Positions 5,654 through 23,112 of a stretch of 33,275 nt of DNA are shown in pieces. A model generated the notes under the pieces. It did not search any database. It was not told the DNA's origin and worked only from the letters and a program-made list of their open reading frames with translations. Position numbers and translations under genes: made by a program. Where the stretch lies: IMG/VR virus record IMGVR_UViG_3300009130_000087, positions 1-33,275 of that record; one strand, written 5' to 3'. The stretch is from a virus. Position 1 is the first letter of the stretch. The number at the start of each line of letters is the position of its first letter.

Positions 5654-6457
5654 ATGCAAACAATACAAAGGTATTTACTCACAAACTCGGTAATCGTTTA
5701 CCAAAATGGTTATCATGGAAGGAACTCAAAAGTGTACGATAGACGTCTACAGGTGTATAGAGGTGTATATAACCCGCTTACTTTTACGTTTAAAAACGAA
5801 GATCAAAAGAAGCAGGATATAACAGGCAAAACTTATACTTTTAGTATTGTAGATACTGATAGCAAAAAAGCAGTAATTACAAGAAATCTTAAAATATTAG
5901 ACGATGGTTCTACTATTAGTACTAAAGGAACTGCTAGTGTAGATATTACAGATGGCGACCTACAACCTTTAGATGCAAAATTTTATGAGTATTCTATACG
6001 AGAAGTACTAACTGATGGTAGTACTGTGGCAACGTATGCAGATACAAGTTATGTAAGTGCTGGTACTATTGAAGTACTTGATGGTGCTTATCCACAATTT
6101 AATGCAAGTACATCAATATCTAGTTTTACCGAAACTAGTGGTCCACTAGAATATACATCAGGAGCCATTGATGCTAAACCAAGTTTGAATAACAACAAAG
6201 CATTACACACAATCGCAGTATATACTAAAAACTTTACCGGGGACTTTAAAGTACAAGGTACCATGACGTCTTCTCCTGCAAGTGCAGATTACTTTGATAT
6301 TACCTTAGATGGACAAGGTTCTAGTACAGTTACATTAACAGACTCTACTACGGTAAATTATTATAACTTCTACGGTGTTTACCATTCGGTAAGATTCAGT
6401 TGGGATAATGCAACTGATAATACTGGAACTATTGACAAAATCCTTTATAGACAGTAA
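5654..6457 (+). CDS. Probable virion structural protein, beta-rich
   Basis: A 267-residue Ser/Thr/Asp-rich protein with repeated short beta-strand patterns and few charged helices. The first 100 residues (FTFKNEDQKKQDITGKTYTF, then a D.DLQPLDAKFYEYSI strand pair) resemble the domain found in baseplate or fibre proteins that carry applied-field strings such as BppU-N, but I cannot confirm it. The C-terminus (about residues 180-267) looks like a separate beta-sandwich ending in ILYRQ. It is preceded by two late-promoter-like boxes, consistent with late virion expression, and sits oddly between two replication blocks. Tail fibre, baseplate or capsid decoration are all possible. Confidence 0.6.
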   Translation: MQTIQRYLLTNSVIVYQNGYHGRNSKVYDRRLQVYRGVYNPLTFTFKNEDQKKQDITGKTYTFSIVDTDSKKAVITRNLKILDDGSTISTKGTASVDITDGDLQPLDAKFYEYSIREVLTDGSTVATYADTSYVSAGTIEVLDGAYPQFNASTSISSFTETSGPLEYTSGAIDAKPSLNNNKALHTIAVYTKNFTGDFKVQGTMTSSPASADYFDITLDGQGSSTVTLTDSTTVNYYNFYGVYHSVRFSWDNATDNTGTIDKILYRQ

Positions 6458-6468
6458 AATAGTAAAGT

Positions 6469-8908: not shown

Positions 8909-8941
8909 GCTATTATACACGTATATAATAGGTTATATTTG

Positions 8942-8979
8942 ACTAAATATTCACTAGTACCATACACGATTGGTAAATA
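8942..8979 (+). promoter_or_regulatory. Promoter region of the DctP-like gene
   Basis: Two late-promoter-like boxes, ACTAAATA at 8942-8949 and GGTAAATA at 8972-8979, lie in the 100-nt gap before ATG 9011. A Shine-Dalgarno TAGGAG at 8995-9000 follows. A sigma70-like TATAAT at 8924-8929 is also present without a good -35. The gap marks a new transcription unit after the replication genes. Confidence 0.45.
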
Positions 8980-9010
8980 CATACAAATTGCAATTAGGAG
9001 TAAATGTAAA

Positions 9011-9931
9011 ATGAAAAAATTAACATGGTTGATTATTAAATCAAACAAACAAGGTTACGGTCCTTGCCCTTTAAAGCAAGTTATTAGACCGGCTCAAGCA
9101 TTCAAAAAATTAATAGAAAAAGAAACAAACGGAAGTGTTGAAGTTGAACTTTTAACTTCTTCTCAGTATGAAGCCAAACACGGAACATACCTTAAAAAAG
9201 TAGGTGATGTTCTAAAAGCATTACAAAACGACGAAATACAAATGACTCAAGTAGAAGTATATGAATTGGGTGAAATGGATAATAATTTCTATGTATTTGA
9301 TATGCCGTGGATGTTCAAATCACACAATCACGCTTCAAAAGTTTTAGATGGAAAAATTGGTTATGCAATGAACCAAAGATTGAAAAAACACTACAACATT
9401 AAAGGTCTAGCTTACACATACTCCGGTGGATATAGATCAATTGGTGGATTTAAAACAATTCCAACATTAGAAGATTTAGCAGGAAAAAATATTCTTATTA
9501 ACGGTAACCCTGTTACTAAAGATTATATGGAATCGTTAGGTGTAAAAACTACTAGAGCTAAAAACGACGATGGCATTGATGGTAGAGATACAACTTACAT
9601 ACGTTTCCCTGAAGCAACTAACTTCTTAAAAACTAATCACTCTTTATTCTTAACTGACGTTTTGGTAAATTCAAAATTTTGGGATTCACTAACAGAAAAA
9701 GAACAAGATGCATTTAACAAGGTTGCAAAAGAAGTAGCAGTACTTGAAAGAGGTTGGACAACTGAAGATGCTAAAAAATTCGAAGAAACAGCAGAAGAAA
9801 ACGGCTGTGAAATAGTTGAGATGTCAAAAGATGATCAACTAGCTATGCAAGAAAAAGCTAAAGAATTATATAAAAAATGGGAATCAAAATGGTTTCCTGG
9901 TTTAACTTCAGGTATAGAAAAATTACAATAA
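9011..9931 (+). CDS. DctP-type solute-binding protein without signal peptide
   Basis: A 306-residue member of the TRAP-transporter DctP substrate-binding family, normally a periplasmic receptor for carboxylates. Family features are the first strand followed by a helix (AFKKLIEKETNGSVEVEL), the MFKSHNHASKVLDG block, and the central hinge SGGYRSIGGFKTIPTLEDLAGKN. Start at ATG 9011 chosen for TAGGAG at 8995-9000; the longer frame to 8939 is shared with promoter sequence. The N-terminus (KKLTWLIIKSNKQGYG) enters the first beta strand directly, so there is no signal peptide and the product should remain in the cytoplasm unless released by lysis. No TRAP membrane subunits are nearby. Own promoter and terminator. 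Confidence 0.8.
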   Translation: MKKLTWLIIKSNKQGYGPCPLKQVIRPAQAFKKLIEKETNGSVEVELLTSSQYEAKHGTYLKKVGDVLKALQNDEIQMTQVEVYELGEMDNNFYVFDMPWMFKSHNHASKVLDGKIGYAMNQRLKKHYNIKGLAYTYSGGYRSIGGFKTIPTLEDLAGKNILINGNPVTKDYMESLGVKTTRAKNDDGIDGRDTTYIRFPEATNFLKTNHSLFLTDVLVNSKFWDSLTEKEQDAFNKVAKEVAVLERGWTTEDAKKFEETAEENGCEIVEMSKDDQLAMQEKAKELYKKWESKWFPGLTSGIEKLQ

Positions 9932-9948
9932 TTTTAAATTAACAATCT

Positions 9949-9974
9949 AAGGCGGCTTTATGTCGCCTTTTTTT
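9949..9974 (+). terminator. Rho-independent terminator after the DctP-like gene
   Basis: AAGGCG (9949-9954) pairs with CGCCTT (9964-9969) across a 9-nt loop and the second arm runs into seven T residues to 9974. It follows the stop of the DctP-like gene by 17 nt and isolates that gene from the accessory island. Confidence 0.85.
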
Positions 9975-9993
9975 GTGGCGGTGGTAAACTTAC

Positions 9994-10001
9994 TTTAAAT
10001 A
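9994..10001 (+). promoter_or_regulatory. Late-promoter-like box 5 nt before a start codon
   Basis: TTTAAATA ends 5 nt before ATG 10007, just after the terminator, with no Shine-Dalgarno in the gap. With T4 late-promoter geometry (box at -13 to -6) transcription would begin on the A of the ATG. Confidence 0.45.
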
Positions 10002-10006
10002 TCCAT

Positions 10007-10645
10007 ATGCAATTACAAAAATTATGGTCAGGGTTTACCAACGAACAGTATAATTATATTACCAATATTATTAAAAATAGTGATGCCAAAAGTATTTGCG
10101 AACTTGGCACGTTTGTTGGAACCACAGCAAAACATATTTGGGAACATATAAAAAATTCTAATAAAAAACTATACCTTGTAGATAATTATTTGTTTTTACC
10201 TGAGAATAAAAGACAAAAATTTTTTGATGCTGTCAAACATTCTATCGATTCCGACACAACAAATATTATTACTGTATTAGAAAACAGTCACACATATCGT
10301 TGGACTCAACACAATTTTATTATATTTGGTCACCACGATGCTGACCATATGGTGCCGGACCTAAACACACTAATGAATAGTGATGTAGACTATGCAATAA
10401 TAGGTGACGGGACTCCTAAATGTTTCCAAAGAACAAAAGCTGTGTATGAACTAATAGCAAATTTATCTGGTAAGGGATTGTGTCCACAATATTATCTCAA
10501 CGGATTAATTGTGTTAGGAAGAAAACAATTAGAATGCACACTACCTACTAAAGAAGATTTTTTATTTGGACACAAAATAAAATATATGCCTAAACCTAAA
10601 GGCAATTATCTAAAGGCAATTGATGAACTTAAAAGAATATATTAA
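10007..10645 (+). CDS. Class I SAM-dependent methyltransferase-like protein
   Basis: A 212-residue protein whose N-terminal half resembles a Rossmann SAM methyltransferase: motif I ICELGTFVGTTAKHIWEHI at residues 30-48, then KLYLVDNY where the acidic residue normally binds the SAM ribose, and FIIFGHHDADHM later. This matches the Methyltransf_24-like type often found in sugar or antibiotic gene clusters. The substrate is unknown; its place at the head of the accessory island suggests O- or N-methylation of the island's product. Next gene overlaps by 23 nt. No Shine-Dalgarno; see the box immediately upstream. Confidence 0.65.
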   Translation: MQLQKLWSGFTNEQYNYITNIIKNSDAKSICELGTFVGTTAKHIWEHIKNSNKKLYLVDNYLFLPENKRQKFFDAVKHSIDSDTTNIITVLENSHTYRWTQHNFIIFGHHDADHMVPDLNTLMNSDVDYAIIGDGTPKCFQRTKAVYELIANLSGKGLCPQYYLNGLIVLGRKQLECTLPTKEDFLFGHKIKYMPKPKGNYLKAIDELKRIY

Positions 10646-11177
10646 TTGGACAAAAACTATAAACGATTATAAAACTGCACCAAATGTTGCAGATACTAAT
10701 GCTTGGGGTTTTGAACGACATGGAAGAGTAATAGTTCCAGAAATACAAATAAAAAATGCTAAAGAAGGCGATGAAGGCTATTGGCATTTTAGAAACGATA
10801 CGTTGAATGAATGGGCTAGGAAAATTTGGTCTAACTTACAATGTGTAGAAGCAAAAATACAAATACAAAAACCAAATCAAATATGTCATCCGCATTTAGA
10901 TTTCCTAGGAGAATATTTAGAAAAAATATCTAAATTACATCCTAATATATTAGAACTAGAACATTCATTAGACAAGCCAGCAATAGATGTATGGCGTATG
11001 TTTGTTGCTATAGATGATCATATTCCCGGACAAATATTTTCTATTAATAACAAAGAGTGGATATGGAGGGCAGGTGACTGTATTAGATTAAACAACTGGC
11101 GGGCTCTGCACTGGACAAAAAATACAAGTAAAGTTGATCGAGCAATAATTAAAATCACAGGAATTAATTTAAATTAA
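10623..11177 (+). CDS. Putative 2-oxoglutarate/Fe(II) oxygenase
   Basis: A 184-residue protein with the facial-triad pattern of non-haem iron oxygenases: His-x-Asp in CHPHLDFLGE near residue 95, distal His in ALHWTKN near residue 162 and the 2OG-binding Arg in DRAIIKITG 9 residues on. The MFVAIDDHIPGQIF and IWRAGDCIRLNNW strands match the double-stranded beta helix. Such enzymes hydroxylate amino-acid side chains, nucleosides or sugars. ATG 10623 chosen because AAAGG at 10612-10616 lies 6 nt upstream; TTG 10620 is the alternative. It overlaps the methyltransferase gene and is followed 3 nt later by asnB. Confidence 0.7.
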   Translation: MNLKEYINWTKTINDYKTAPNVADTNAWGFERHGRVIVPEIQIKNAKEGDEGYWHFRNDTLNEWARKIWSNLQCVEAKIQIQKPNQICHPHLDFLGEYLEKISKLHPNILELEHSLDKPAIDVWRMFVAIDDHIPGQIFSINNKEWIWRAGDCIRLNNWRALHWTKNTSKVDRAIIKITGINLN

Positions 11178-11180
11178 AAT

Positions 11181-12818
11181 ATGTGTGGAATATACGGTAT
11201 AACTGCTAAAGATTCTAAATTTATAAATCAATGCATTGATAAATGTAGCTATCGCGGACCTGACGGGCGAGGTGTTTGGGGTGATGACACTATTACGTTA
11301 GGACATAATCTTTTAAGTATGATGGCTGACCCGAGTGTGTCTAAACAACCATGGATAACTCCTAAAGGAAACATACTTGTATACAACGGAGAAATTTTTA
11401 ATTACTATAAACTTAAAACAAAATACAAACAATTTATAGACACCACAGGCTGTGATACTGAGCTTCTTGCTTGGGGGTTAGATAACTTTGGATTAGAGTT
11501 TCTTAAAGAAATAGACAGCCAACACGCATTTGCTTATTATAATGTTAACAATAATATTTTAACTTTAAGTAGAGATCATGTTGGTATTAAACCTTTGTAT
11601 TATTGCGAAACTGCAGAAGGATTAATTTTTGGTTCTGAAGTTAAAATTTTTGAAGACAAAGTTTTGTTTGACGTGGATTGGACTGCATTATCTTGCTATG
11701 CGTATACTGGTGTAAATGCATTATCTCAAACTTATTATAAAAGAATTAAACGCCTTCTTCCTGGTGAAGTGATTGAGTATCATTGTAAAAATAAAACTTT
11801 TACAAAAATTAAAAATTTTTTTAAACCAACTCATACTAAAGAATTTGACGTAAATGAATATAGAAGTATGGTAAAAGAAGTTGTATTGGATAGCACTGTG
11901 GGTATAAGAAAAATAGGAGTCCCATTAAGTGGTGGGTTAGACTCAACTATAATTGCTTATGAACTTAAACAGATTAATAAATCTGTTGATACATTTTCTT
12001 GTAAGATGGCTTTAACATCTGATAAACTTGATGAGGATTATCGACTAGCACAAATTTTAAATGAAAAATGTAATTTTAATTTTACTGATGTAGATATAAA
12101 TCCAAAAACAATTATTACAGATTGGAATACATCAGTTAAAATAAATGAGGATCCTTATATGAGTGAAGACTTGCCTATGGCTTATCGATTAAATCAAATC
12201 ATGGGCCAAAAAGAAATTGTTGCAGTAGTGTTTGGTGGGTTGGGTGACGAAACAATGGCAGGATATAATTTTTACAAACGTGTTAAATTCGCTTTAGATA
12301 AAGTTACAAATAAAAAAGATATGTTTAATATTTGGTTGAATAGGGTTCCTCAAATATTTAAACATTCAAAGCTATTGCCAAAAAGCAACATAATAGATAT
12401 TCTAAACGCCGAGTATGATAATATATTTTTTGACAAAAATGATATTTTAAATTCGTTTATGCTTTTTGAATGTTTAGCTTTAGCTCCTGGTCGATTTTTT
12501 GAAAGAAATGATAAATTTGCAATGAATTTTTCTATGGAAGGACGCTATCCGTTTGCTTCAAAAAAATATATGGAATATGCTTTTAGTATTCCTTCTAAAA
12601 CAAAAAATATCGGACAAACAAAGTCTTTAGTGCGATTAGCATATAAAAATATTCTACCCGAGGAAATTATTAACTCTCCAAAAAGAGGCTGGGATATTCC
12701 AAAAATGGAGTGGATAGAATACAATAAGGCTTATAAAAGTTTTAATAATCGTTTTAAACAACACCCAAATATAGAAAGTTGGTTTAACGTTAACAATCTA
12801 CAAGGAGTTGAATTTTGA
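11181..12818 (+). CDS. asnB: Glutamine-hydrolysing asparagine synthetase
   Basis: A complete 545-residue class II asparagine synthetase: glutamine + aspartate + ATP give asparagine, glutamate and AMP. The N-terminal glutaminase has Cys2 as nucleophile (MCGIYGI), YRGPDGRG at 24-31, YNGEIFNY at 68-75 and CDTELL at 91-96. The synthetase domain has the PP-loop LSGGLDST at 249-256 and GGLGDETMAGY later. All catalytic elements look intact, so it should be active. Homologues in clusters often amidate a sugar acid, peptide or other carboxylate rather than free aspartate. It is paired with a degenerate copy directly downstream, overlapping by 4 nt. Confidence 0.9.
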   Translation: MCGIYGITAKDSKFINQCIDKCSYRGPDGRGVWGDDTITLGHNLLSMMADPSVSKQPWITPKGNILVYNGEIFNYYKLKTKYKQFIDTTGCDTELLAWGLDNFGLEFLKEIDSQHAFAYYNVNNNILTLSRDHVGIKPLYYCETAEGLIFGSEVKIFEDKVLFDVDWTALSCYAYTGVNALSQTYYKRIKRLLPGEVIEYHCKNKTFTKIKNFFKPTHTKEFDVNEYRSMVKEVVLDSTVGIRKIGVPLSGGLDSTIIAYELKQINKSVDTFSCKMALTSDKLDEDYRLAQILNEKCNFNFTDVDINPKTIITDWNTSVKINEDPYMSEDLPMAYRLNQIMGQKEIVAVVFGGLGDETMAGYNFYKRVKFALDKVTNKKDMFNIWLNRVPQIFKHSKLLPKSNIIDILNAEYDNIFFDKNDILNSFMLFECLALAPGRFFERNDKFAMNFSMEGRYPFASKKYMEYAFSIPSKTKNIGQTKSLVRLAYKNILPEEIINSPKRGWDIPKMEWIEYNKAYKSFNNRFKQHPNIESWFNVNNLQGVEF

Positions 12819-14353
12819 AGTTTTTTATATCTAAAACAAAAAAATTAAAAAACAAATTTGGTGATTGGTATTTTTGGCATGATGAAAAAGTCAAAATACA
12901 AAAAAATTCTGACTATGTAATACTATATCATGGATACACAATCAATGACTCTATTGAGAACTGTCTAAATAATTTTGATCACTTGCAACAACAAGATGGC
13001 AATTTTTTTGCAGTAAAAATTACACAAAGTAATTTAGAAGCAATAACAGATACATTTTGTCAAAATAAAATCTTTTATAGACCAAATGAGGTTACTAACT
13101 CGATTTATTTGTTTCCTTTTACTCCCTCAGATATAGATAAAAAAGAATTGTTAATGAGGGCCGACCATCCAACTATAGAAGAGTGGGGAGAAGATGCAGG
13201 ACCAACTAGTTATCGTGCATATATTTGGCAAAAGTATCCTGAACATAAAAGAATACAAAACAGACTTCATAATCCTGAAACTTGTACTACTATCTTTAAA
13301 GACACATTTCTATTACAACCAGATCATAAACTTATTCATAATGGCAAATTTCAAGTAGTGCGAGTATATAACACACCAAAACAAATACAAACTAGTCTAC
13401 GAAATACTAAAGTTCCTAGCGATAATATTGAAGAAAAAATATACGAAAGAATGAAAAAACACGCAAACGTTATAAGCAAGAACTACACAAACGTTTATAG
13501 TAGTGTAAGTGAAGGAATTGATTCTGTGTTGCAAGATAGTTTCTTTCCATCTGCTACTAGTGTATATTACGATTTTATTCCTAATAATGTTCCAGAACAA
13601 TATAAAAAAATTATTCAATCACAATCTCAAAAAAAATTTAAACACGACTCAATGCCTTTACAACCTTTAAATGAATTTGAAAACGTTGTTTCAACGTCAA
13701 TGAACGATCCAACTTGTTGCTTTTTAGATACTCTTCCTAGTCAATGGCAAATGAAAAAGTACAATGATGCTGATATATTACTATTTGGCCAATGTGCTGA
13801 TCAGATGTTTATGCACACTCCGTGGTTTTACTATGAATTAACTTATTGTAATATTAGACATTTTACTAACGACCCTACAGAAATAGAACAAAAATTTAAC
13901 GAAACATTAGAAAAAGAACAAAACTGTTATGCTGTAAAGGAAAATTTTAGACGTAAAGTAAAATTAACTTATCAAGAAGTTTTTAAAGAACCTGTTGAGA
14001 ACAGTTTATCTGAGACTCATACAAGTTATTCAAACGACAATGCAATACCACGTAAGGCATTGCCTGGACTGTATAATAGAGATATAGCACACGCAATTGA
14101 TAAACCTGTAACTAGCTTATATGCTGATAAAGATCTTTATTTTTTAATCCACTCTTTACCGTTTGATCAAATGCTAGATAATGTAAAAAATATTACTATA
14201 CAAAAAAATATTTTAAAAAATAAATTTAACAAAAACTTTCAAACACCTTACAAAGATGCCGCAAGTTTTTTAACTATACCAATAATAAATTTGTATTATA
14301 AGCACACTGTAAGCTATTGTTTAGCAGATCATTTAAGCGAATTAGAAGCGTAA
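12815..14353 (+). CDS. Degenerate asparagine-synthetase-like protein
   Basis: A 512-residue protein that I read as a divergent AsnB homologue. The N-terminus lacks the catalytic Cys2, so it has no glutaminase, but DGNFFAVKI near 61 and a QPDHKLIHNGKF block near 168 follow the AsnB scaffold. The PP-loop is altered to VSEGIDSV at 231-238 (SGGxDS in active enzymes), and ILLFGQCADQMF near 320 stands where VLFxGxGxDExF is expected. Asp of the loop is kept. Related folds include beta-lactam synthetase and lasso cyclase, which dropped glutaminase activity. Start is TTG 12815, supported by AAGGAG at 12802-12807. Could be a regulator, a partner of AsnB or an ATP-dependent ligase. Confidence 0.65.
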   Translation: MKFFISKTKKLKNKFGDWYFWHDEKVKIQKNSDYVILYHGYTINDSIENCLNNFDHLQQQDGNFFAVKITQSNLEAITDTFCQNKIFYRPNEVTNSIYLFPFTPSDIDKKELLMRADHPTIEEWGEDAGPTSYRAYIWQKYPEHKRIQNRLHNPETCTTIFKDTFLLQPDHKLIHNGKFQVVRVYNTPKQIQTSLRNTKVPSDNIEEKIYERMKKHANVISKNYTNVYSSVSEGIDSVLQDSFFPSATSVYYDFIPNNVPEQYKKIIQSQSQKKFKHDSMPLQPLNEFENVVSTSMNDPTCCFLDTLPSQWQMKKYNDADILLFGQCADQMFMHTPWFYYELTYCNIRHFTNDPTEIEQKFNETLEKEQNCYAVKENFRRKVKLTYQEVFKEPVENSLSETHTSYSNDNAIPRKALPGLYNRDIAHAIDKPVTSLYADKDLYFLIHSLPFDQMLDNVKNITIQKNILKNKFNKNFQTPYKDAASFLTIPIINLYYKHTVSYCLADHLSELEA

Positions 14354-14408
14354 AATTTTTATTATGCGTTTTTTATTTTTTTATGCGTAAGCATAAGTTT
14401 GCGTAAAA
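14348..14408. repeat. Short repeat cluster in a convergent gap
   Basis: GCGTAAAA occurs at 14348-14355 and 14401-14408, and TTATGCGT at 14362-14369 and 14381-14388. The second TTATGC is followed by GTAA and GCATAA, giving a 6-bp hairpin at 14381-14396. Two T-runs lie between. It sits between the degenerate AsnB-like gene and a convergent gene. Possibly a bidirectional terminator of unusual form or a protein-binding site; neither strand gives a classic hairpin followed by T-run. Confidence 0.5.
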
Positions 14409-14450
14409 CGGATGCCTTGACCTTTTATAATCAAAGCACCCTGTTATAAG

Positions 14451-14786
14451 TTAAAATTTAAATTTTAAGCCGACGGTTGATTCTTGATGTTTTAAATTAA
14501 CATCAAAATCATTATTAATGTATAAATTAACTCCGCTATCCTCAAATAGTGGCTTTTTCAAATCAAATTCGAAACCATTAAATGTTGAATTTAAATCGTC
14601 GTCAACTTTATAATTAATGCCGGTTGTAGATTTAAACCCTAACATATTAAACGTAGTATCTAAATACATAGCATTTGTTTCTGCCTGTGCTTTACGTTCT
14701 ACGCCAAACACAAAGTCTACGTTATCGTCCGCTAGTGCAGGTATTGTAAACATAACCACACCTAGAGCAATTAATATTCTCTTCAT
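14451..14786 (-). CDS. Small secreted or outer-membrane beta-strand protein
   Basis: A 111-residue protein with a signal peptide (MKRILIALGVVMFTIPALA, probable cleavage before DD). The mature part has alternating polar/hydrophobic strands (FEFDLKKPL, VNLYINNDFDVNL) and ends STVGLKFKF with a C-terminal Phe, a feature of outer-membrane beta-barrel proteins. At about 92 mature residues it could form only part of a barrel or assemble as oligomer. Shine-Dalgarno AAGGAAGG lies 9 nt before the ATG. It may alter the host envelope during infection, for example to block superinfection; that is inferred. Confidence 0.7.
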   Translation of the reverse strand: MKRILIALGVVMFTIPALADDNVDFVFGVERKAQAETNAMYLDTTFNMLGFKSTTGINYKVDDDLNSTFNGFEFDLKKPLFEDSGVNLYINNDFDVNLKHQESTVGLKFKF

Positions 14787-14928
14787 ATTATTTTGCCTTC
14801 CTTATCCCAATTTATTGATTATGTCTTAAATTGCTCGAACATCTTTAAGACACTCATATTTAGGTTTAAAAAAAATTTAATTATTCGTTTCTGAGTCATA
14901 ATTACGAGTAGATTATGAGGATACCAAT

Positions 14929-15126
14929 ATGGGAATACATCACACATATAAAGCCCAAAGAGGCGAACGAGCGGCTAAAAAACAAGCCAAACAAATGGAA
15001 CGACAAGCCCGTTCTCGTAATCGAAAAATCCTAAGACAGCAACAAGAAAAAGAAGGCACATTTTCCGTACCAGTAAATACTTGCATAACAATGGATATGC
15101 TTACTGATCCTAAGTTGCGAAAATGA
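14929..15126 (+). CDS. Small basic protein coupled to a radical SAM gene
   Basis: A 65-residue protein, strongly basic in residues 8-42 (Lys/Arg/Gln helix such as RAAKKQAKQMERQARSRNRK), with a less charged tail containing VPVNTCITMDML. GAGG at 14917-14920 precedes the ATG by 8 nt, and the stop overlaps the start of the radical SAM gene (ATGA). By composition it should bind nucleic acid. By position it could be a peptide substrate of the following radical SAM enzyme, but it lacks a recognised leader and its tail has only one Cys. Confidence 0.65.
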   Translation: MGIHHTYKAQRGERAAKKQAKQMERQARSRNRKILRQQQEKEGTFSVPVNTCITMDMLTDPKLRK

Positions 15127-16148
15127 TAAACGAAAGACTTTTTAAACACTACAACATAGATACTAATAAAAATTTAAAAATTAAAACCCATTGCCCGCGG
15201 CCATTTGATACTGTTCTTATAGATAAGAACGGTTCTTGTTTTGCTTGTGAATGTACGTCGTGGTTGCCACAAAGTATAGGCAACTTACAAGTTCAATCCT
15301 TAGAAGAAATTATTGATTCTAAAATGCATAAGCATTTACAAAGTTCTATGACTGACGGTACGTATCGTTACTGCAACGAGAATCAATGTCCTTATGTAAT
15401 ATCTAACACTGTGGAACATATAACAGGCGGAACTAATATTAAACATTTACGTTTAGCTATTGATGATTCTTGTAACTTACGTTGTCCAAGTTGTAGGAAA
15501 GGATTAATATTCCACAAAGATGGTTCAACATTTAGGCTAGGTATAAGACTTGCAGACAAAATTAATGATTGGCTATACACATATGACAAGCCTATACAAG
15601 TACACATAGGATCAGATGGTGATCCATTTGCTTCACACGTCTACAGACATTTCATGGAACACACACCTGAACGAGATAACATCAAATATTCTATTTTAAC
15701 TAATGGACTTATGTTTGAGGACTTCTATGCTAAAGTCCCATACGTAATAAACAATTTACAAGAGTTGGGCGTTAGTATAGATGGTGCTAGTAAAGAAACG
15801 TATGAGAAACTGCGACTAGGAGGCAGTTGGGAAAAGATTAATCAAAACTTAAAATGTATTTCTGCCTTAAGAAAGAAACATAACTTTAAATTTATACTGC
15901 ACTTTGTTGTACAAAAAGGCAATTACCACGAGATGGAAAAAATTGTTGACCTAGGAGAGCAATATGGTGCTGATAGAGTTTGGCTTAACAAAATTGAGGA
16001 CTGGGGTACTATGGATGATTTTAAAGATCATAACATCTTTAATCCAGCACATAACGAACATACACAGTATCAAACGTTGCTAGATAACCTAAAACAACGT
16101 GCTGAAGGAAATAATTTAATCGAGGCTCCTACCCTTTTTAAATATTAA
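15123..16148 (+). CDS. Radical SAM protein with N-terminal auxiliary Cys module
   Basis: A 341-residue radical SAM enzyme. The [4Fe-4S]-SAM motif is CNLRCPSC with Cys117, Cys121 and Cys124. Before it, residues 24-89 carry extra cysteines (CPRPFDTVLIDKNGSCFACEC, later CNENQC) and IGNLQVQSLEEI, the pattern of SPASM/twitch modules that bind a second cluster and usually lie at the C-terminus. The customary GGEP becomes GSDGDPF. Then come LTNGLMF and VSIDGASKETYEKLR, matching SPASM-type enzymes. Product unknown; peptide modification or amino-sugar chemistry are usual for the type. Coupled to the small basic gene upstream and 2 nt from the next radical SAM gene. Confidence 0.8.
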   Translation: MINERLFKHYNIDTNKNLKIKTHCPRPFDTVLIDKNGSCFACECTSWLPQSIGNLQVQSLEEIIDSKMHKHLQSSMTDGTYRYCNENQCPYVISNTVEHITGGTNIKHLRLAIDDSCNLRCPSCRKGLIFHKDGSTFRLGIRLADKINDWLYTYDKPIQVHIGSDGDPFASHVYRHFMEHTPERDNIKYSILTNGLMFEDFYAKVPYVINNLQELGVSIDGASKETYEKLRLGGSWEKINQNLKCISALRKKHNFKFILHFVVQKGNYHEMEKIVDLGEQYGADRVWLNKIEDWGTMDDFKDHNIFNPAHNEHTQYQTLLDNLKQRAEGNNLIEAPTLFKY

Positions 16149-16150
16149 TA

Positions 16151-16972
16151 ATGAAACATAGAATAAAACGTTTAGACTTTAACGTCGCCTATGCTTGTAA
16201 TTTGTCTTGCAAAGGCTGTATTAGTTTAAGCGACTTTGATAGACGTGGCGTTGAATCTTTAAAAGATATTAAAGAACAATGTAAGACGTGGAGCAAAATA
16301 TTAGACCCATCTATTATATCAATTTTTGGTGGTGAGCCTTTATTGCATCCAAGAATAAAACAAGTGCTAGACATAATAAGAGAGTCGTGGCCTAACGCAG
16401 TAATTAGATTTATAACTAACGGATACTTACTACGTAGGTACGATCCTGAAATGTGGTATACATTTGGATCACTTGAAATGCAAGTTAGTATACACAGGCA
16501 AGACCACGAACCACTAATAACAAAAGAGATTAAACGTATTGTTAAATGCAGAGAAGGATGGACAACTACAAGAAGTAAAGTTGATGGACACAGACAATTA
16601 GAATTACATAACGAAGACTTAACAATTTATAAAAGTAAATTTAAAAGATTTGTGATGCCTTATCGTTTAGAAAACGGAGAAATAAAACCATTCAAAAGTA
16701 ATCCTAAAAAAGCACACAGCATTTGTGGATCACCTAACGTACCAATTTTATATCGTAACAAGTTATATAAGTGTGCACCTTTGCCAAATATATTAGAACT
16801 TGATAAGGGAGGCTATTACAAATACAAAGGAATAGAACCCACTGGTGACGTAGAAGGATTAGTTAAAAAAATTAATAAACCTGAAGCTGTATGTTCTATG
16901 TGTCCTGAAAGTACTAGCCATTCAATAGATCATTTTAAAAAGGAAAACGTTCATGTCAAAGATATTGACTAG
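16151..16972 (+). CDS. Radical SAM protein, SPASM-like C-terminus
   Basis: A 273-residue radical SAM enzyme with CNLSCKGC (Cys16, Cys20, Cys23) and FGGEPLLHP near residue 58. After TNGYLLRRY the core shortens, and C-terminal cysteines (HSICGSP; LYKCAPLP; VCSMCPES) probably bind an auxiliary Fe-S cluster in the normal C-terminal place, unlike the neighbouring paralogues. Role unknown; it lies between another radical SAM gene and an SGNH-like gene and probably acts on the same substrate. The 3' end overlaps the next gene by 20 nt. Confidence 0.8.
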   Translation: MKHRIKRLDFNVAYACNLSCKGCISLSDFDRRGVESLKDIKEQCKTWSKILDPSIISIFGGEPLLHPRIKQVLDIIRESWPNAVIRFITNGYLLRRYDPEMWYTFGSLEMQVSIHRQDHEPLITKEIKRIVKCREGWTTTRSKVDGHRQLELHNEDLTIYKSKFKRFVMPYRLENGEIKPFKSNPKKAHSICGSPNVPILYRNKLYKCAPLPNILELDKGGYYKYKGIEPTGDVEGLVKKINKPEAVCSMCPESTSHSIDHFKKENVHVKDID

Positions 16973-17627
16973 TGGTTGTGGACTATCATGGTCTAAACAA
17001 GAAAGACCCACGTGGGTTAATGTTCTTAAACTGTGTGGCGTTGACATTGACGACCAGGCAGGACCGGCTATAAGCAATCAATTAATACTGAATAATATGA
17101 TTGAAAGTGTTATGGAAAACGATTACGACCAAGCAATATGCCAACTAACTGGTACTAAAAAACTTGATATAGAACTAACAAACGAAGAGAGAAAAAAAGT
17201 TGCAGAACAAGATACTATTAGAAATTTTACTTACAAAAATTATTGGCCAAGCAGTGCAAGTGCTGAACACGATAGCAAAAAATTATATTACAAATACTTG
17301 CATAGTCCAACAATTGAACAAAGCGATATAATTTATAAATGGTTATTATTAAAGAAACTTTGCAATGAAAAAAATATAAAATTACACACAGTACTAGGAT
17401 ATACAATAGAATGGACTAATCAAAAATATAAACTAATAGATACTAATCACGATTATTGTATATGGAATGATTATATACTGGGCGAATATTATGCACTACA
17501 CGATCATTCTCTTGGTGAAAAAAATACTGTGCCTAACAAATATTTTCACGTATACTTGGCAAGGAAGTTTAATAATGACTTTCTCAATTTGCCAATAGAG
17601 GAAAAATTAGAAAAGTTTCATGACTAA
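16953..17627 (+). CDS. SGNH/GDSL-like hydrolase-type protein
   Basis: A 224-residue protein starting KILTSGCGLSWSKQERPTW. Gly-Cys-Gly-x-Ser near residue 8-12 resembles block I of SGNH hydrolases, with Ser12 as the possible nucleophile. Toward the C-terminus NKYFHVYLARKFNNDFL may be the His-containing block V, but a clear D-x-x-H is not obvious, so activity is uncertain. SGNH enzymes remove or transfer acyl groups on sugars and lipids. AAGGA at 16940-16944 lies 8 nt upstream. Overlaps the following gene by 8 nt. Confidence 0.55.
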   Translation: MSKILTSGCGLSWSKQERPTWVNVLKLCGVDIDDQAGPAISNQLILNNMIESVMENDYDQAICQLTGTKKLDIELTNEERKKVAEQDTIRNFTYKNYWPSSASAEHDSKKLYYKYLHSPTIEQSDIIYKWLLLKKLCNEKNIKLHTVLGYTIEWTNQKYKLIDTNHDYCIWNDYILGEYYALHDHSLGEKNTVPNKYFHVYLARKFNNDFLNLPIEEKLEKFHD

Positions 17628-18267
17628 AACATTATTTGTTTGCTATTGGCACGGTTGCAAAGGAGAAGGATTAGCTTATAGAATTTCTCAACATAGTTTT
17701 TTTAAAACTCTAGACGCTAACATAATCAACAACAGAACTATAATAAAAAATGAATATTTTAACAAAGTATTTTTAAATAATTGGGCACCGGATTGGTCTT
17801 CTATAAAACTCCCAACAAATATTAATATTGTAGTGCCTAGTCACTTTTGGTATGACGAATTAAAAAAACATTTTCCAGAAGCATACTTTGTTAGTATAGG
17901 TATTCCTAAAGACATAGAAACATTTAAACAAAAACTATATGATCGCTTTTACTCATACAAAACTAAAAATATATTAGAATTAGCAGGCGAATGTGAAAAT
18001 CGAATCCGTGAATATAATCCTAAAGCTAGTGTAAAAGATGTAATGAAATTTACAGCTAAAATTTTTAAAATGGAAAATATATCATTTGGTGATATACGTT
18101 GCTATGCAAAAAATTTAGAACCCACAGCTAAAAACAAAAAAATGTTACTAAACAAATATACCATGGACCCGTTATCAACTGAAACTAAACAAAATAGTTT
18201 TGTTGTTGCATACGAAGATGTAGATAAAGTTAATGTTGAAGATATAATTGACTACTGTAATAAGTGA
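17620..18267 (+). CDS. Hypothetical protein, possibly P-loop transferase-like
   Basis: A 215-residue protein I cannot place. The N-terminus FVCYWHGCKGEGLAYRIS has a strand followed by a Gly-rich turn and helix, which could be a sulfotransferase- or kinase-like phosphate-binding loop, and IVVPSHFWYDELKKHFPEA and YFVSIGIPKD could continue that fold. None of this is decisive. It overlaps the SGNH-like gene at the start and the convergent oxygenase gene by 16 nt at the end. Confidence 0.6.
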   Translation: MTKTLFVCYWHGCKGEGLAYRISQHSFFKTLDANIINNRTIIKNEYFNKVFLNNWAPDWSSIKLPTNINIVVPSHFWYDELKKHFPEAYFVSIGIPKDIETFKQKLYDRFYSYKTKNILELAGECENRIREYNPKASVKDVMKFTAKIFKMENISFGDIRCYAKNLEPTAKNKKMLLNKYTMDPLSTETKQNSFVVAYEDVDKVNVEDIIDYCNK

Positions 18268-18734
18268 AGTGGTTCTTTATAAAAACAAAAACTAAATTGA
18301 ATTCTAGGGTGCTTGGCTTCCTTACCCATTTCTACTGTGTGTAAAATGTCAGAACGTAATACAATTGGTTTTGTACATTCAACTCTGTCTATTTCATTTT
18401 TATCGTCATCATACCAAACGTTATACGTGTCTTTGGTGTTTAACACTGGAAAGTTTATTTTAGCAACAACAGGACCTTCATCTTTATGAATCTCTGTTCC
18501 ACAGTTGTTGGCAGTAGTAGTAAAACTTATATCTCTACAAACCAAACCTAAACTTTTAAACCATTTCATTAATTCCAGTCCGTCTATAGAAAGATAATCT
18601 TTTATTTGCTCTCGTGTTAAATGTGTCCAAAATTTTGTAGGAGGTTTGTTTGCTGTTATTCCAACATAATATCCATATAAACTATCTGCAATTTTTTGTT
18701 GTTTCTCACAATCCAAAATAAAATATGACTTCAT
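18252..18734 (-). CDS. Putative 2OG-Fe(II) oxygenase (minus strand)
   Basis: A 160-residue protein with the triad pattern of 2OG oxygenases: His-x-Asp in EIHKDEGPVVAKINFPV near residue 90, a distal His in SDILHTVEMG near residue 134 and Arg in PRIQFSFCF 10 residues later. NTKDTYNVWYDDD lies between, as in prolyl/aspartyl hydroxylase-like enzymes. The protein is short but covers the core beta helix. It is transcribed toward the plus-strand island and divergently from the SDR gene across a 25-nt gap containing a palindromic late-promoter-like site. Substrate unknown. Confidence 0.7.
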   Translation of the reverse strand: MKSYFILDCEKQQKIADSLYGYYVGITANKPPTKFWTHLTREQIKDYLSIDGLELMKWFKSLGLVCRDISFTTTANNCGTEIHKDEGPVVAKINFPVLNTKDTYNVWYDDDKNEIDRVECTKPIVLRSDILHTVEMGKEAKHPRIQFSFCFYKEPLHLLQ

Positions 18735-18739
18735 CTAAC

Positions 18740-18751
18740 GTATTTAAATAC
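18740..18751. promoter_or_regulatory. Palindromic divergent late-promoter-like site
   Basis: GTATTTAAATAC is a perfect 12-bp palindrome in the 25-nt gap between two divergent start codons. It gives TTTAAATA on each strand: 6 nt before ATG 18734 on the minus strand and 9 nt before ATG 18760 on the plus strand. No Shine-Dalgarno is seen on either side. A single box may fire both ways. Confidence 0.5.
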
Positions 18752-18759
18752 TGATATAC

Positions 18760-19359
18760 ATGAAAATTGCAATTACTGGACATACACACGGAATTGGTAA
18801 AGCATTCGCTGAACAATTAGCAGAACGAGGACACGAAATTATTGGAATATCTAGACGTGATGGTGAAAATATTAGAAGAATAGAACATACTGCAAACCTA
18901 ATTGATCCATGTAACTTGTTTATTAACAATGCACAATCTTATTACGCACAAACAGAATTATTGTATGCTGTTTGGAAACGTTGGCACACTTTGGCTAGTC
19001 AACATTGGATATGGAATATTAGCACAATGATGACCGAAGAACCAATTAATAGTACAGTAGAAGGGTTAGATGACATTGATTTAAGCGAATATCGTACACA
19101 AAAACTTGCACTTGAAGAAGCAACAAAACAACTACAACATAAAAGTAGTTGGCCAAAAATTTCAATTATACGCCCTGGCGCAGTTGAAACATCTGACATT
19201 AAAAAAGAAGAAGAGTTTATAAAATCCTGTGGAGAGGTTATGGAAAAATCTGATGTTAATGTTTGGGTTAAAAGTGTAATTGATACGTTTGCACAACACC
19301 AAAACATTCACGTAAGTGAATTATCAATTGGCCATACTACACAAAGGATTCCTATTTAA
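18760..19359 (+). CDS. Short-chain dehydrogenase/reductase
   Basis: A 199-residue SDR-family NAD(P)-dependent oxidoreductase. The cofactor loop TGHTHGIG is at residues 6-13, FINNAQ is in the NNAG position, NIS supplies the catalytic Ser region and YRTQK the catalytic Tyr-x3-Lys, followed by IIRPGAVET. At 199 residues it is shorter than the usual 240-280, mainly by loss of loops. Substrate unknown, likely a sugar, polyol or island intermediate. The stop TAA is directly followed by the ATG of the next gene. Confidence 0.85.
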   Translation: MKIAITGHTHGIGKAFAEQLAERGHEIIGISRRDGENIRRIEHTANLIDPCNLFINNAQSYYAQTELLYAVWKRWHTLASQHWIWNISTMMTEEPINSTVEGLDDIDLSEYRTQKLALEEATKQLQHKSSWPKISIIRPGAVETSDIKKEEEFIKSCGEVMEKSDVNVWVKSVIDTFAQHQNIHVSELSIGHTTQRIPI

Positions 19360-20523
19360 ATGGATGTTAAAAAGTTTTTTACTAATAAAAGTTTTTGTGT
19401 GTTACCATGGACAGGTTTTGAGCTTGAGCCAAATGGTGATGTAAAAAATTGTATAATTTCTAAAGAAGTACTTGGCAATATAAACGATACAGACATTCAA
19501 GATATAATGTCTAATGCTCAAAATTTAAAACTTAAAAAAGATATGAATGCTGATAGTAAACCATATAATTGTTCTGGTTGCCATTTACAAGAATTACATA
19601 GAAAAGATCCTTCTAGTATTAGTAGTAGACGTTATTACAATAGAGAATTAGGAAAAGATTATCTTAATATATCAAAAGAATTTTCATTACACCATGTTGA
19701 CTTACGTTGGACAAATCATTGTAATCAGGCCTGTGTTTATTGTAGTCCGTTATATAGTAGCAAATGGGCAACTGAATTAAATGAAAAAGTTAGATCAAAA
19801 AAAAGTGCAAGAGATAAACTTAAAGAATATGTATTTGATAACGTTAAACAATTAAGAAATGTTTATCTAGCTGGTGGGGAACCTATGCTAATGAACGAAA
19901 ATAAAGAATTTTTAAAGCTATTATTAAAACAAAATCCAGACGTTACTATAAGAGTTAATACGAATTTAAGTTCTACTAATACAGGTGTGTTTGAATTATT
20001 GTGCCAATTTAAAAATGTTCATTGGACTGTTAGTGTTGAAAGCATAGAAAAAGAATATGAATATATTAGACATCACGGTTCGTGGAAAGACTTTTTACAA
20101 AACTTAAAATGCATACAAAAATTAAATCACAAAATTAGTTTTAATATGCTATATTTTATATTAAACTACAAAAGTATTTTTAATACTGTTGATTACTTTA
20201 AAGATTTAGGATTTGTTGACAATAGTTTTATTATTGGTCCATTATATAAACCAAGTCATCTTAATATTCTTAACTTGCCAGAAAATATGCTAGACGAAAT
20301 AAAAGAAAGGCTAGAAGCTGAAATACCAAAAAGTATGGGCTATCTTAAAAACAGTTATGAAAATATCTTAACTTATATAAAAGAAACAACGTTTGAAAAC
20401 AATATTACAAAATTTCTTTTACAAACATATGAAAGAGATATGCGTAGAGGAGTCAACGCAACAAAAATCTTTCCAAAACTATTTGAGGAGTTAGATGCTT
20501 ACCCATTGGACAAATTTAATTAA
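19360..20523 (+). CDS. Radical SAM protein with N-terminal twitch/SPASM-like module
   Basis: A 387-residue radical SAM enzyme with CNQACVYC (Cys121, 125, 128) and LAGGEPMLM near residue 171. The N-terminal part has FCVLPWTGFELEPNGDVKNC, LGNINDTDIQDIMS and CSGCHLQE, the Cys pattern of a twitch or SPASM auxiliary-cluster domain placed before the core instead of after it. I recall phage proteins annotated as twitch-domain radical SAM with this layout (not searched). Substrate unknown. AAAGGA at 19343-19348 is 11 nt before the ATG. The next gene starts 29 nt before its end. Confidence 0.8.
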   Translation: MDVKKFFTNKSFCVLPWTGFELEPNGDVKNCIISKEVLGNINDTDIQDIMSNAQNLKLKKDMNADSKPYNCSGCHLQELHRKDPSSISSRRYYNRELGKDYLNISKEFSLHHVDLRWTNHCNQACVYCSPLYSSKWATELNEKVRSKKSARDKLKEYVFDNVKQLRNVYLAGGEPMLMNENKEFLKLLLKQNPDVTIRVNTNLSSTNTGVFELLCQFKNVHWTVSVESIEKEYEYIRHHGSWKDFLQNLKCIQKLNHKISFNMLYFILNYKSIFNTVDYFKDLGFVDNSFIIGPLYKPSHLNILNLPENMLDEIKERLEAEIPKSMGYLKNSYENILTYIKETTFENNITKFLLQTYERDMRRGVNATKIFPKLFEELDAYPLDKFN

Positions 20524-21115
20524 AACTGATTGCAAAGTAGTAAGGATTGGAAATGACTATGTATATCCAATTTTTAAATGTGGTTGTACAACATTATTTG
20601 TTAATGCTGATCAAATACTTGTTAACGAAGAACTACAAAACTTACCAATTATTAAAGTTATTTTGCGAGATCCTGAAGAAAGATTTATAGCAGGTGTTAA
20701 CAAATACTGTGATGATAACAATGTTGCAATAGAGGATGTAGTTAAGCAAATAAAAAAAGAACGTGTAGCTGACGAACATTTTGTTCCACAATGGGTATGG
20801 CTATTTCATTTATATAGATTTTATAAAGGTAATGTATCTATACTACCTATGTCACAACTTGACAAATTTGTAAAACAAAGTTGGCAAATGGACGTTAACT
20901 TTAAGTTTCCTCGTTTGAGGAAAAACTTTCCGGAGGAATGGGAAGAAGCATTAGGAAAACGTCATGGCAAAGCTCGTAATATAATGGAGACAAAAAAGCC
21001 AGTACCAATTATAAAAGATTTTGTTTCTAATGATAAAGAAATAATAAAAAATTTTATGAACAAAGAGATTGATTTAAAAACTATTGTAAAGGATTATCGT
21101 CATGTATTGTCCTAG
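20495..21115 (+). CDS. Sulfotransferase-family protein
   Basis: A 206-residue protein of the sulfotransferase type, which moves sulfate from PAPS to a sugar, peptide or lipid. YPIFKCGCTTLF at residues 23-34 corresponds to the 5'-phosphosulfate loop (usually K-x-G-x-T/S), and VILRDPEERFIAGVNKY at 54-70 to the 3'-phosphate-binding motif, followed by LPMSQLDKF, equal to the region after the dimer helix. GAGGAG at 20485-20490 precedes the ATG by 4 nt. It overlaps radical SAM genes on both sides, so it probably acts in their pathway. Confidence 0.75.
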   Translation: MLTHWTNLIKTDCKVVRIGNDYVYPIFKCGCTTLFVNADQILVNEELQNLPIIKVILRDPEERFIAGVNKYCDDNNVAIEDVVKQIKKERVADEHFVPQWVWLFHLYRFYKGNVSILPMSQLDKFVKQSWQMDVNFKFPRLRKNFPEEWEEALGKRHGKARNIMETKKPVPIIKDFVSNDKEIIKNFMNKEIDLKTIVKDYRHVLS

Positions 21116-22160
21116 GCTTAAACACTTTACAAGACTAAATGTTGATGGCACTATCGGCAAGTGCGGACATATGACTACTATCAAAGGCTTTACATCGTTT
21201 GCAGAATTAGAAAACAGCAAATGGTTAGAAAAAGTTAAAACTGATATGAAATTTGATATATGGCCGGAAGAGTGTATAAGATGTAAACAAACAGAAGAAA
21301 TAAATGGAGAAAGTATTAGAACCAAAAGTATTGAGCGACACAAATTGTTACATCCATTTAAAGATGATTATCTAGTAGTTGGTGGAGTATTAGACAATAT
21401 ATGTAACAGTGCTTGTCAAACTTGTAATTCTGGATTGAGTACAAAAATTGGAAGCCTCGAATCAAAAAACTATCCACGTATTAATAACTTTGAAAACTTT
21501 TGGAAACTACCTCAAAATAGAATTTTAGAAGTAGATGTTAATGGAGGGGAACCTACTGCTAGTAAAAATTATAAAAAACTTCTAGCAAACTTACCTGTTA
21601 ATACAAAAATAGTAAGAATGAATACTAACGGTTCAAAAATGATTAAAGAGTTAGAAACAATACTAAGAAACAGAATTATGGTTATTGTAACATTAAGTTT
21701 TGATGGCGTGGGGGACGTTCATGATTATGTACGTTGGCCTATTAAATGGAAAAACTATATTAAAAGTGTACAAGCATATAAAAAATTACAAAAACAATTT
21801 AGATTATTAAAATTAAACTTTTGGACTACTGTAAGCAGTATTAATGTAGAGAATTTGCCAAACATATTAGACTTTGCAACTGAACATGGAATTGACCACG
21901 ACTGGGCATTTTTAAATGATCCTGATGCTTTAAACGTAAAATATAAAAATAAATTTACTTTAAGTGCTAAAGAAAAATTAAAAACATCTTCGTATGCTGT
22001 ATGCAGAGATATTGCAGACAAGATAGCAATTGATAAAGATAACGATGAACAAATTGATCTTTATATCAAAAGACAAGACTATATTAGAAAAATTAATATT
22101 AACGATTATTTTAATTTTAATTTAAACTTACCTAAAAATAATTCAGCAAAAGCTAAATGA
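21102..22160 (+). CDS. Radical SAM protein with N-terminal Cys module
   Basis: A 352-residue radical SAM enzyme with CNSACQTC (Cys101, 105, 108) and VNGGEPTAS near residue 146. The first 65 residues hold MYCPRLKHFTRLNVDGTIGK, CGHMTT and ECIRCKQ, the SPASM/twitch cysteine pattern in front of the core, as in the radical SAM genes at 15123 and 19360. VTLSFDGVGDVHDYVRWP matches SPASM-type enzymes. Its C-terminus overlaps the convergent SGNH gene by 55 nt. Product unknown. Confidence 0.8.
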   Translation: MYCPRLKHFTRLNVDGTIGKCGHMTTIKGFTSFAELENSKWLEKVKTDMKFDIWPEECIRCKQTEEINGESIRTKSIERHKLLHPFKDDYLVVGGVLDNICNSACQTCNSGLSTKIGSLESKNYPRINNFENFWKLPQNRILEVDVNGGEPTASKNYKKLLANLPVNTKIVRMNTNGSKMIKELETILRNRIMVIVTLSFDGVGDVHDYVRWPIKWKNYIKSVQAYKKLQKQFRLLKLNFWTTVSSINVENLPNILDFATEHGIDHDWAFLNDPDALNVKYKNKFTLSAKEKLKTSSYAVCRDIADKIAIDKDNDEQIDLYIKRQDYIRKININDYFNFNLNLPKNNSAKAK

Positions 22161-22816
22161 TGCTTTTCTCCATAGTGTATACCATCTTGTGCAAAGTTAG
22201 GATCAGTAATCCTTTGTTTACGTGCTTCAGGTAAATTATGATTATCCCAAGGTGGCCAGCAACTTTTAAGTGTAGCATATTCTAATGCATTAATATTTTT
22301 TGGAAGTGTTGGTATTTCTTCTGCAAAGCAATGAAATACTTTTGCTTCATTATGTTCAGCAAACTTTTGTATAAAAAATACATTCTTTAAAAAATTCATA
22401 TGATCTGTAGACTCTGTTTCATATTTTAGATACTTGTCTCTGCCAAAGCAGTCTATTGGAATTTTATCTAAACGTTCTCGTCTACTACTATGTGGCCAGC
22501 AACATATTATAATTTTAGGAAATAAAACTTTCTCTGCACCATATAAAATACGTACCATTCTATCTCCTGAACAACCCGGAACAGCTAAATTCCAATACCT
22601 TAAAATAGTTGTATTACATTTTGATAAGTGTGCGACCCAATGTGTGTTTTCTGCATGACCAACTCCGAAGGTATGCGAACATCCAAGTATTACAACATTC
22701 TTTTTTCCTTCGGGCACATTAAATTCAGGACAACGATATCCTAATGAATTTACTTTAATTCCTTCTGCATTATTGTTTACTGGAATTCCTTTATCTGAAA
22801 AGTGGCCAATGTCCAT
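22106..22816 (-). CDS. SGNH/GDSL hydrolase-like protein
   Basis: A 236-residue protein with clear SGNH blocks: VVILGCSHTFGVG near residues 41-53 (GxSxT with Ser nucleophile), an Asn/Gly block in LAVPGCSGDRM, and a C-terminal AQDGIHYGEKHHLAFAE with the Asp-x-x-His pair. NSLGYRCPEF before block I is typical of envelope-associated SGNH proteins. It could hydrolyse acyl or acetyl esters from host or virion polysaccharide. One-base overlap with the upstream small gene shows coupled translation. Confidence 0.8.
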   Translation of the reverse strand: MDIGHFSDKGIPVNNNAEGIKVNSLGYRCPEFNVPEGKKNVVILGCSHTFGVGHAENTHWVAHLSKCNTTILRYWNLAVPGCSGDRMVRILYGAEKVLFPKIIICCWPHSSRRERLDKIPIDCFGRDKYLKYETESTDHMNFLKNVFFIQKFAEHNEAKVFHCFAEEIPTLPKNINALEYATLKSCWPPWDNHNLPEARKQRITDPNFAQDGIHYGEKHHLAFAELFLGKFKLKLK

Positions 22817-23112
22817 TACGTACTTCCTTTAGACAACTCCATTTTACGTTTTAATTGATGTGAAATAAAAAGTTCAATAAAATTCATTCTTCCTGGTAAC
22901 ACTTTACCATATTTTATTCTTGCTAGTGTAAGATATTTTGCTTTAGCATAGCATTCCATAATTGCTTTTCGTTTGACGTGTTTCATTGCTAATGCTTTAT
23001 TGTCATACAAGTATTTGCAGAATGGGGATTCGTCTACTAGAAGTTTTTTTGCAAACCCAATTGGTACATTTTCATTGTAACCTTTTAGCGGCATAGTAAA
23101 AAACTTCTTCAT
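22816..23112 (-). CDS. Small basic hypothetical protein
   Basis: A 98-residue Lys-rich helical protein without signal, membrane segment or known motif. Its stop shares a base with the SGNH gene start (TAATG), so it is likely co-expressed with it. A sigma70-like TATAAT lies about 8 nt upstream of the ATG, too close for a usual leader. Function unknown. Confidence 0.65.
   Translation of the reverse strand: MKKFFTMPLKGYNENVPIGFAKKLLVDESPFCKYLYDNKALAMKHVKRKAIMECYAKAKYLTLARIKYGKVLPGRMNFIELFISHQLKRKMELSKGST

Follow-up and report, generated by a model that had tools for sequence, protein, structure and literature searches.

The island and its conserved cassette

The 33,275-base virus record IMGVR_UViG_3300009130_000087 (the window, meaning the whole stretch of DNA that was analysed) carries at positions 10007-23112 an island of enzyme genes, among them genes for a sulfotransferase-like protein (ST), a short-chain dehydrogenase/reductase (SDR) and several radical S-adenosylmethionine (SAM) proteins (rSAM1 to rSAM4). 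UvsW, primase and a gp41-type helicase are encoded to its left, and judged by the window UvsW the closest cultured relatives are jumbo phages, chiefly of rhizobia and Pseudomonas. The borders named in an earlier sequence-only reading of this DNA are both present, a terminator-like hairpin on the left and three tRNAs on the right, the first starting at 23135; in an Rfam search of the window only tRNAs were matched. The island genes are packed or overlapping, as had also been claimed. The 13-kb island is composed of a conserved core and exchangeable cargo and does not represent one pathway. Its left border and core genes are the following.

9949-9969, plus strand: intrinsic terminator-like hairpin, left border of the island
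15123-16148, plus strand: rSAM1, N-terminal SPASM and radical SAM domains (Pfam), found 5' of the cassette in the window clade, core at clade level
18760-19359, plus strand: SDR of 199 amino acids with motifs TGxxxGIG, NNA and YxxxK, frequent core
19360-20523, plus strand: rSAM3, N-twitch radical SAM protein (Pfam; NF033640), frequent core
20495-21115, plus strand: ST, sulfotransferase-like, motifs P-I-F-K-x-G-x-T-x-L, RDPxxR and HxxPQ, core
21102-22160, plus strand: rSAM4, radical SAM protein with an N-terminal twitch/SPASM-like cysteine domain (profiles, fold), core

Scans of viral contigs identified 92 relatives with rSAM3 and at least 593 with the rSAM4 family. With profiles, 154 loci were scored, a set that contains many fragments and from which near-identical contigs had been removed in part only; since loci had been selected for rSAM3, rSAM4 or rSAM1, the counts give co-occurrence conditional on one member and not population frequencies. 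ST and rSAM4, usually together with SDR and rSAM3, form a tightly packed core that was found in about 150 uncultured viral contigs in two orders. The commonest order, gp32-ST-rSAM4-SDR-rSAM3-UvsX, was present in 46 of the 154 loci, and gp32-SDR-rSAM3-ST-rSAM4-UvsX in 12; the ST-first order with an inserted 2-oxoglutarate (2OG) oxygenase gene (11/154) and ST-rSAM4 alone (7/154) were also seen. All six genes occurred together in 76 loci. Median gaps were -20 bases from ST to rSAM4 (n=130) and -4 bases from SDR to rSAM3 (n=109), and in the window rSAM4 overlaps ST by 14 bases. Pairwise distances of the cassette genes correlated with each other at 0.39-0.62 and with those of UvsX or gp32 at 0.21-0.37.

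ST, rSAM4, SDR and rSAM3 thus co-occur in a fixed adjacency, whereas the methyltransferase-like gene (MT), the oxygenase-like gene 2OG10620, AsnB, an AsnB-like open reading frame (ORF), rSAM2 and the pair SGNH1-ORF17620 vary among close relatives. Independent occurrence of the genes, which the sequence-only reading had named as refuting its proposal, was accordingly observed for this second set and not for the four core genes. The phage-borne tailoring pathway that had been proposed for the island is supported for the conserved core, but not for the whole 13 kb.

Genomic sites and distribution

Most cassettes lie precisely between the genes for a gp32-like single-stranded DNA-binding protein and UvsX. 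In the cultured jumbo phages Phosso, CBB, XbC2, Atu_ph07 and Vibrio 2.275, whose UvsX is 65-70% identical to cassette-adjoining UvsX, these two genes are adjacent and roughly 50-80 bases apart. In the window clade the gp32-UvsX site is empty as well, and the cassette is located downstream of the gp41 helicase gene, with rSAM1 before it and the SGNH hydrolase-like gene SGNH2 after it on the opposite strand. At this second position, the gp32-site phages G013 and G039 carry directly after gp41 a gene of 81-82 amino acids, and unrelated radical SAM genes are located there in other gp32-site phages. From this reciprocal pattern of empty and occupied sites it follows that the cassette occupies different sites in different clades, and the empty sites in related cultured jumbo phages explain why those phages have not revealed it.

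The carriers are uncultured relatives of giant T4-like (jumbo) phages, and the cassette is common in water metagenomes. No match was obtained by tblastn of rSAM3, rSAM4, ST and SDR against 50,697 phage records, nor by megablast of the island against phages. Two conserved rSAM3 peptides, used to scan 84,980 bacterial and archaeal species, retrieved seven relatives, mostly from the Bdellovibrio group and 23-26% identical; as the scan was built on two peptides, it may not have reached more distant homologues. Separately, in Bdellovibrio-group genomes (L082-L088) several N-twitch radical SAM-like genes are clustered, in part next to glycosyltransferase-like and SGNH-like ORFs. In the parts of the open-access literature that were covered, radical SAM genes are mentioned in passing beside glycosyltransferases in marine phages (PMC7029224, PMC7150976), and an ST-rSAM4-SDR-rSAM3 unit is not described there. 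The cassette, widespread and situated within a variable tailoring island, is apparently previously undescribed. Glycan genes in phages are known as such; what appears to be new is a compact cassette of two radical SAM genes and a sulfotransferase-like gene at gp32-UvsX that is unmatched in isolates.

Both sites also gather unrelated N-twitch radical SAM and metabolic genes, and variable genes make up most of the 13 kb, as would be expected if the island were a patchwork of unrelated auxiliary genes collected in two insertion hot spots. This explanation is nevertheless improbable, as the adjacency, overlaps and order of the four core genes are conserved at both sites and their divergence is correlated.

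The position between gp32 and UvsX also invites explanations linked to replication. A cassette making a small molecule or modified nucleotide early in infection, either for counter-defence or as a viperin-like chain terminator, would account for the placement among replication genes, and viperin and MoaA are among the structural neighbours of rSAM4. This is judged quite unlikely, however, because viperin-type NCBIfam matches were far under cutoff, the window clade has the cassette elsewhere and the adjoining cargo is of sugar type. Some pathways of DNA modification in phages include 2OG and radical SAM enzymes, which, together with the location beside replication and recombination genes, would fit enzymes that decorate a modified base of the phage DNA. 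Such DNA hypermodification is considered very improbable; a thymidylate synthase/hydroxymethylase-type gene was present in none of 20 records of up to 118 kb, which as fragments make this a weak negative. On the same weak negative, modification based on hydroxymethylated pyrimidines was rejected as a candidate.

Core enzymes and the link to glycan genes

All four radical SAM ORFs named in the sequence-only reading contain CxxxCxxC, and the assignment is backed by Pfam for the first three and by PHROG and NCBIfam profiles and the predicted fold for rSAM4, which is absent from the Pfam matches. The NCBIfam model NF033640 (N_Twi_rSAM, twitch domain-containing radical SAM) has a cutoff of 170 bits, which is exceeded by rSAM3 (251.2 bits) and not reached by rSAM4 (131.6 bits), which has the same architecture, or by rSAM1 (46.5 bits). 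The model defines an architecture and gives neither a function nor a cassette context; for this radical SAM class, whose family model states no function, the cassette provides a short, testable gene list. Invariant cysteines were found in rSAM3 at 13, 31, 71 and 74 (twitch) and at 121, 125 and 128 (cluster), and in the rSAM4 family alignment at 3, 21, 58 and 61 as well as 101, 105 and 108. Outside the cassette, rSAM3 relatives of 59-60% identity were observed in L003-L007 without the other cassette genes; the sugar-type genes in their vicinity include an epimerase and a Vut_1 transporter. The SDR call proved solid, with TGxxxGIG at residues 6-13 and YxxxK at 111-115, and G11, I12, G13, Y111 and K115 were invariant in 25 members.

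For ST the evidence is mixed. In an alignment of 27 family members K28, R58, P60, R63, G67, H95 and Q99 are invariant and S66 is nearly so; K28, R58 and S66 presumably belong to the 5' and 3' motifs that bind 3'-phosphoadenosine-5'-phosphosulfate (PAPS). The order of the motifs K-x-G, R-x-P-x-x-R and H-x-x-P-Q resembles that of the carbohydrate sulfotransferases of Sulfotransfer_2 (PF03567), but the matches are below significance and neither a PDB sequence match nor a significant fold match was obtained. The window ST itself had no direct family match, and 6 of the 27 members matched PF03567 weakly (best E 0.012). In the predicted model (pLDDT 81) Foldseek ranked sulfotransferases first, with NDST1 as the best and not significant (E 0.31), and hhalign of the ST profile with individual sulfotransferase-like proteins of the cargo gave no significant match either. 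The sulfotransferase call is thus less secure than the earlier reading had it: PAPS-type motifs are present throughout the family, but a direct family match is absent.

Structure prediction, which had been suggested as a check, confirmed for rSAM4 a radical SAM/SPASM-type fold (pLDDT 87) and did not discriminate between sugar and peptide as substrates. Its nearest structural neighbour was SkfB (3.5e-7), CteB-type enzymes, SuiB and EpeE were also high, and viperin, MoaA and BlsE were among the neighbours. Most SPASM-type radical SAM enzymes of known structure act on peptides, and rSAM3 and rSAM4 both match SkfB by sequence. These findings would agree with a cassette acting on a protein of phage or host, for instance tail fibre or capsid, or on a peptide encoded in trans, with the twitch/SPASM radical SAM enzymes altering backbone or side chain and ST sulfating tyrosine. 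Against such a protein or peptide substrate, which we regard as unlikely, no island radical SAM protein reaches the cutoff of a RiPP (ribosomally synthesised and post-translationally modified peptide) maturase, neither a peptidase nor a transporter is seen, and the neighbouring genes are sugar enzymes. In addition, the gp32-UvsX cassettes offer no space for a precursor gene, as genes and flanks of ST-first cassettes are separated by median gaps of -20 to +6 bases, that is, by few bases or overlaps; a peptide precursor encoded in cis is therefore unlikely, and a RiPP cluster of that kind was rejected.

The neighbourhood instead points to glycans. The left edge of the window shares 82.5% nucleotide identity over 4.2 kb with L185, and upstream of uvsW L185 and its relatives encode GT61, GT8-like, DegT, GDP_Man_Dehyd/epimerase, C-methyltransferase, FkbM and AsnB proteins. 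Within the window clade, GT61, DegT, GDP_Man_Dehyd, C-methyltransferase and AsnB are found in the UvsY-UvsW interval. In the collinear relative G021, the DNA directly upstream of uvsW, where the window begins, is occupied by a large glycan locus. The earlier statement that no glycosyltransferase is seen holds inside the fragment, but since the glycan locus of collinear relatives ends at the left edge of the window, the missing glycosyltransferases are an artefact of the fragment. The window AsnB is 46% identical to the AsnB in the G021 glycan locus, and this relative ties the island to that locus. At the gp32 site, 33 cassette loci extend for 4 kb or more past UvsX, and in 30 of them this stretch contains sugar genes (CTP_transf_like/MannoseP_isomer, GT8, epimerase or carbamoyltransferase), and the corresponding region of five cassette-less cultured relatives has none (0/5). 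Among the cargo near the cassette are NTP_transferase, CTP_transf_3, GT61, GT17, FkbM and Sulfotransfer_2 proteins. A separate phage group (L188, positions 3226-10472) has five radical SAM genes in a phage sugar locus, accompanied by two SGNH-like ORFs, DegT, an epimerase, a carbamoyltransferase and PIG-L.

Taken with the enzymes of the core, these data suggest that the phage cassette may radically modify and sulfate a sugar of a phage-encoded glycan, a reading to which we give about even credence. In this scheme rSAM3 would abstract hydrogen at a sugar carbon that bears a hydroxyl group, leading to dehydration, dehydrogenation or epimerisation, and SDR would reduce or reset the resulting ketone, as in AprD4/AprD3. 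A second radical step might be carried out by rSAM4, and ST would move sulfate from PAPS to the sugar, while 2OG, methyltransferase, amidotransferase and SGNH proteins may attach or remove variable substituents. The glycan so modified could be displayed on virions or on the surface of the infected cell and alter receptor recognition or superinfection.

The chemistry is modelled on known systems. AprD4 is a radical SAM diol dehydratase that works with the NADPH-dependent reductase AprD3 in the C3' deoxygenation of apramycin, in aminoglycoside sugars (PMC5461906). The SDR-rSAM3 gene pair is similar in that a radical SAM enzyme is combined with a dedicated NAD(P)H reductase, a likeness drawn by description; it differs in that the cassette twitch is N-terminal and the pair is viral and linked to ST and a second radical SAM gene. 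Residues 11-86 of the rSAM3 profile match the auxiliary twitch region of BtrN, a twitch radical SAM enzyme of aminoglycoside biosynthesis, but the match is limited to the cluster domain and the domain order is reversed. By analogy with AprD4/AprD3 and the BtrN-like twitch, radical chemistry on a sugar would come before or after reduction by SDR and sulfation by ST. Host-recognition clusters of pelagimyophages offer a further parallel, as these marine T4-like phages combine genes for lipopolysaccharide and O-chains, glycosyltransferases and, as mentioned in passing, radical SAM cassettes (PMC7029224); in a term search of the main text of that paper, neither a sulfotransferase nor the gp32 site appeared.

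Several points weigh against sugar modification by the cassette. No substrate was identified for its enzymes, and the rSAM4 fold is equally near to peptide maturases, BlsE and viperin. The sulfotransferase identity of ST is weak, with the Foldseek and PDB results given above, and a family match to adenosine 5'-phosphosulfate kinase, as a source of PAPS, was found in only 1 of 21 records, in another phage group and possibly representing another P-loop kinase. Cassette lineages also have large flexible genomes, so that gene-rich hot spots may account for the glycan genes found with them, and as contigs are fragments, negatives are weak. The wider proposal, that a virus-specific cassette, mobile between two sites of the replication region, makes a radical-modified and sulfated sugar without known cellular counterpart, is put forward tentatively. 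If true, viruses would use an unexplored sugar chemistry at scale, given the number of contigs with the rSAM4 family.

Variable cargo and neighbouring genes

The gene list of the sequence-only reading was mostly right; it had overlooked the division into core and cargo, a 111-amino-acid ORF and a fifth radical SAM-type ORF. The accessory and variable genes are as follows.

10007-10645, plus strand: MT, methyltransferase-like, motif ELGTFVGTT, variable cargo
10620-11177, plus strand: 2OG10620, 2OG oxygenase-like, HLD...H, variable cargo
11181-12818, plus strand: AsnB-type amidotransferase (PF00733, 1.6e-36), variable cargo
12815-14353, plus strand: AsnB-like ORF of 512 amino acids, SEGIDS, relatives of 39-40% identity in L099 and L101, variable cargo
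16151-16972, plus strand: rSAM2 (Pfam), relative of 80% identity in L095, variable cargo
16953-17627, plus strand: SGNH1, SGNH-like, GCGLS, variable cargo
17620-18267, plus strand: ORF17620, paired with SGNH1 (pair in L095, L117 and L120), variable cargo
18252-18734, minus strand: 2OG-Fe(II) oxygenase-like, HxD...H, frequent accessory
22106-22816, minus strand: SGNH2, SGNH hydrolase-like, GCSHT and DGIH, core at clade level
22816-23112, minus strand: small ORF after SGNH2, relatives of 38-72% identity in the clade

The calls of the methyltransferase, both 2OG and both SGNH proteins are weaker than the sequence-only reading had stated, as the evidence for them consists of motifs; the 2OG protein at 18252-18734 had no Pfam match. 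Its gene is on the opposite strand to the cassette in the window and on the same strand in many gp32-site cassettes, and the 3' end of SGNH2 overlaps rSAM4. AsnB is solid, with an MCGIYG start (Cys2 amidotransferase) and SGGLDS at 250, and scored slightly below cutoff against TIGR01536 (262.5 versus 267.1 bits). Its degenerate partner, as the ORF at 12815-14353 had been described, did not hold up as a paralogue: similarity to AsnB was not significant (BLASTP E 0.49, hhalign probability 0.1%), the sole aligned feature is SEGIDS in place of SGGLDS, and relatives of this ORF were found without AsnB beside them. In single-protein scans of viral contigs neither AsnB nor the AsnB-like ORF retrieved relatives. 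MT, 2OG10620 and the AsnB-like ORF travel together in L099 and L101-L103, and the AsnB gene lies at the place where nucleotide similarity of the window to L167 ends (position 11170).

Among close relatives the interval between gp41 and rSAM1 differs and holds methyltransferases, sugar nucleotidyltransferases, GT61, GT17, a sulfotransferase, TctA, porin, TauD, a RuBisCO-like protein and others. The RuBisCO large-chain-like cargo was assigned by reading of the ORF sequence at L170:2624-3808 (also L104, L176 and L177), and one member of the scanned cargo set matches PF00016 (RuBisCO large chain, 7e-36). Just 5' of the island, at 8939-9931, a DctP-type solute-binding protein of a tripartite ATP-independent periplasmic (TRAP) transporter is encoded (PF03480, 2.2e-42), which is also present in relatives and replaced in others by a TctA-type gene. 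The overlooked ORF at 14451-14786 (minus strand, 111 amino acids) has a signal peptide-like start and relatives of 43-50% identity in L094, L095 and L112, and possibly encodes a small outer-membrane protein. The fifth radical SAM-type ORF lies outside the island at 25797-26849, with the motif CMFSCLFC and relatives of 69% identity in L099 and L101. Further to the right, at 30880-33197 on the minus strand, adjacent ORFs resemble isocitrate lyase and glutamine synthetase in a reading by eye.

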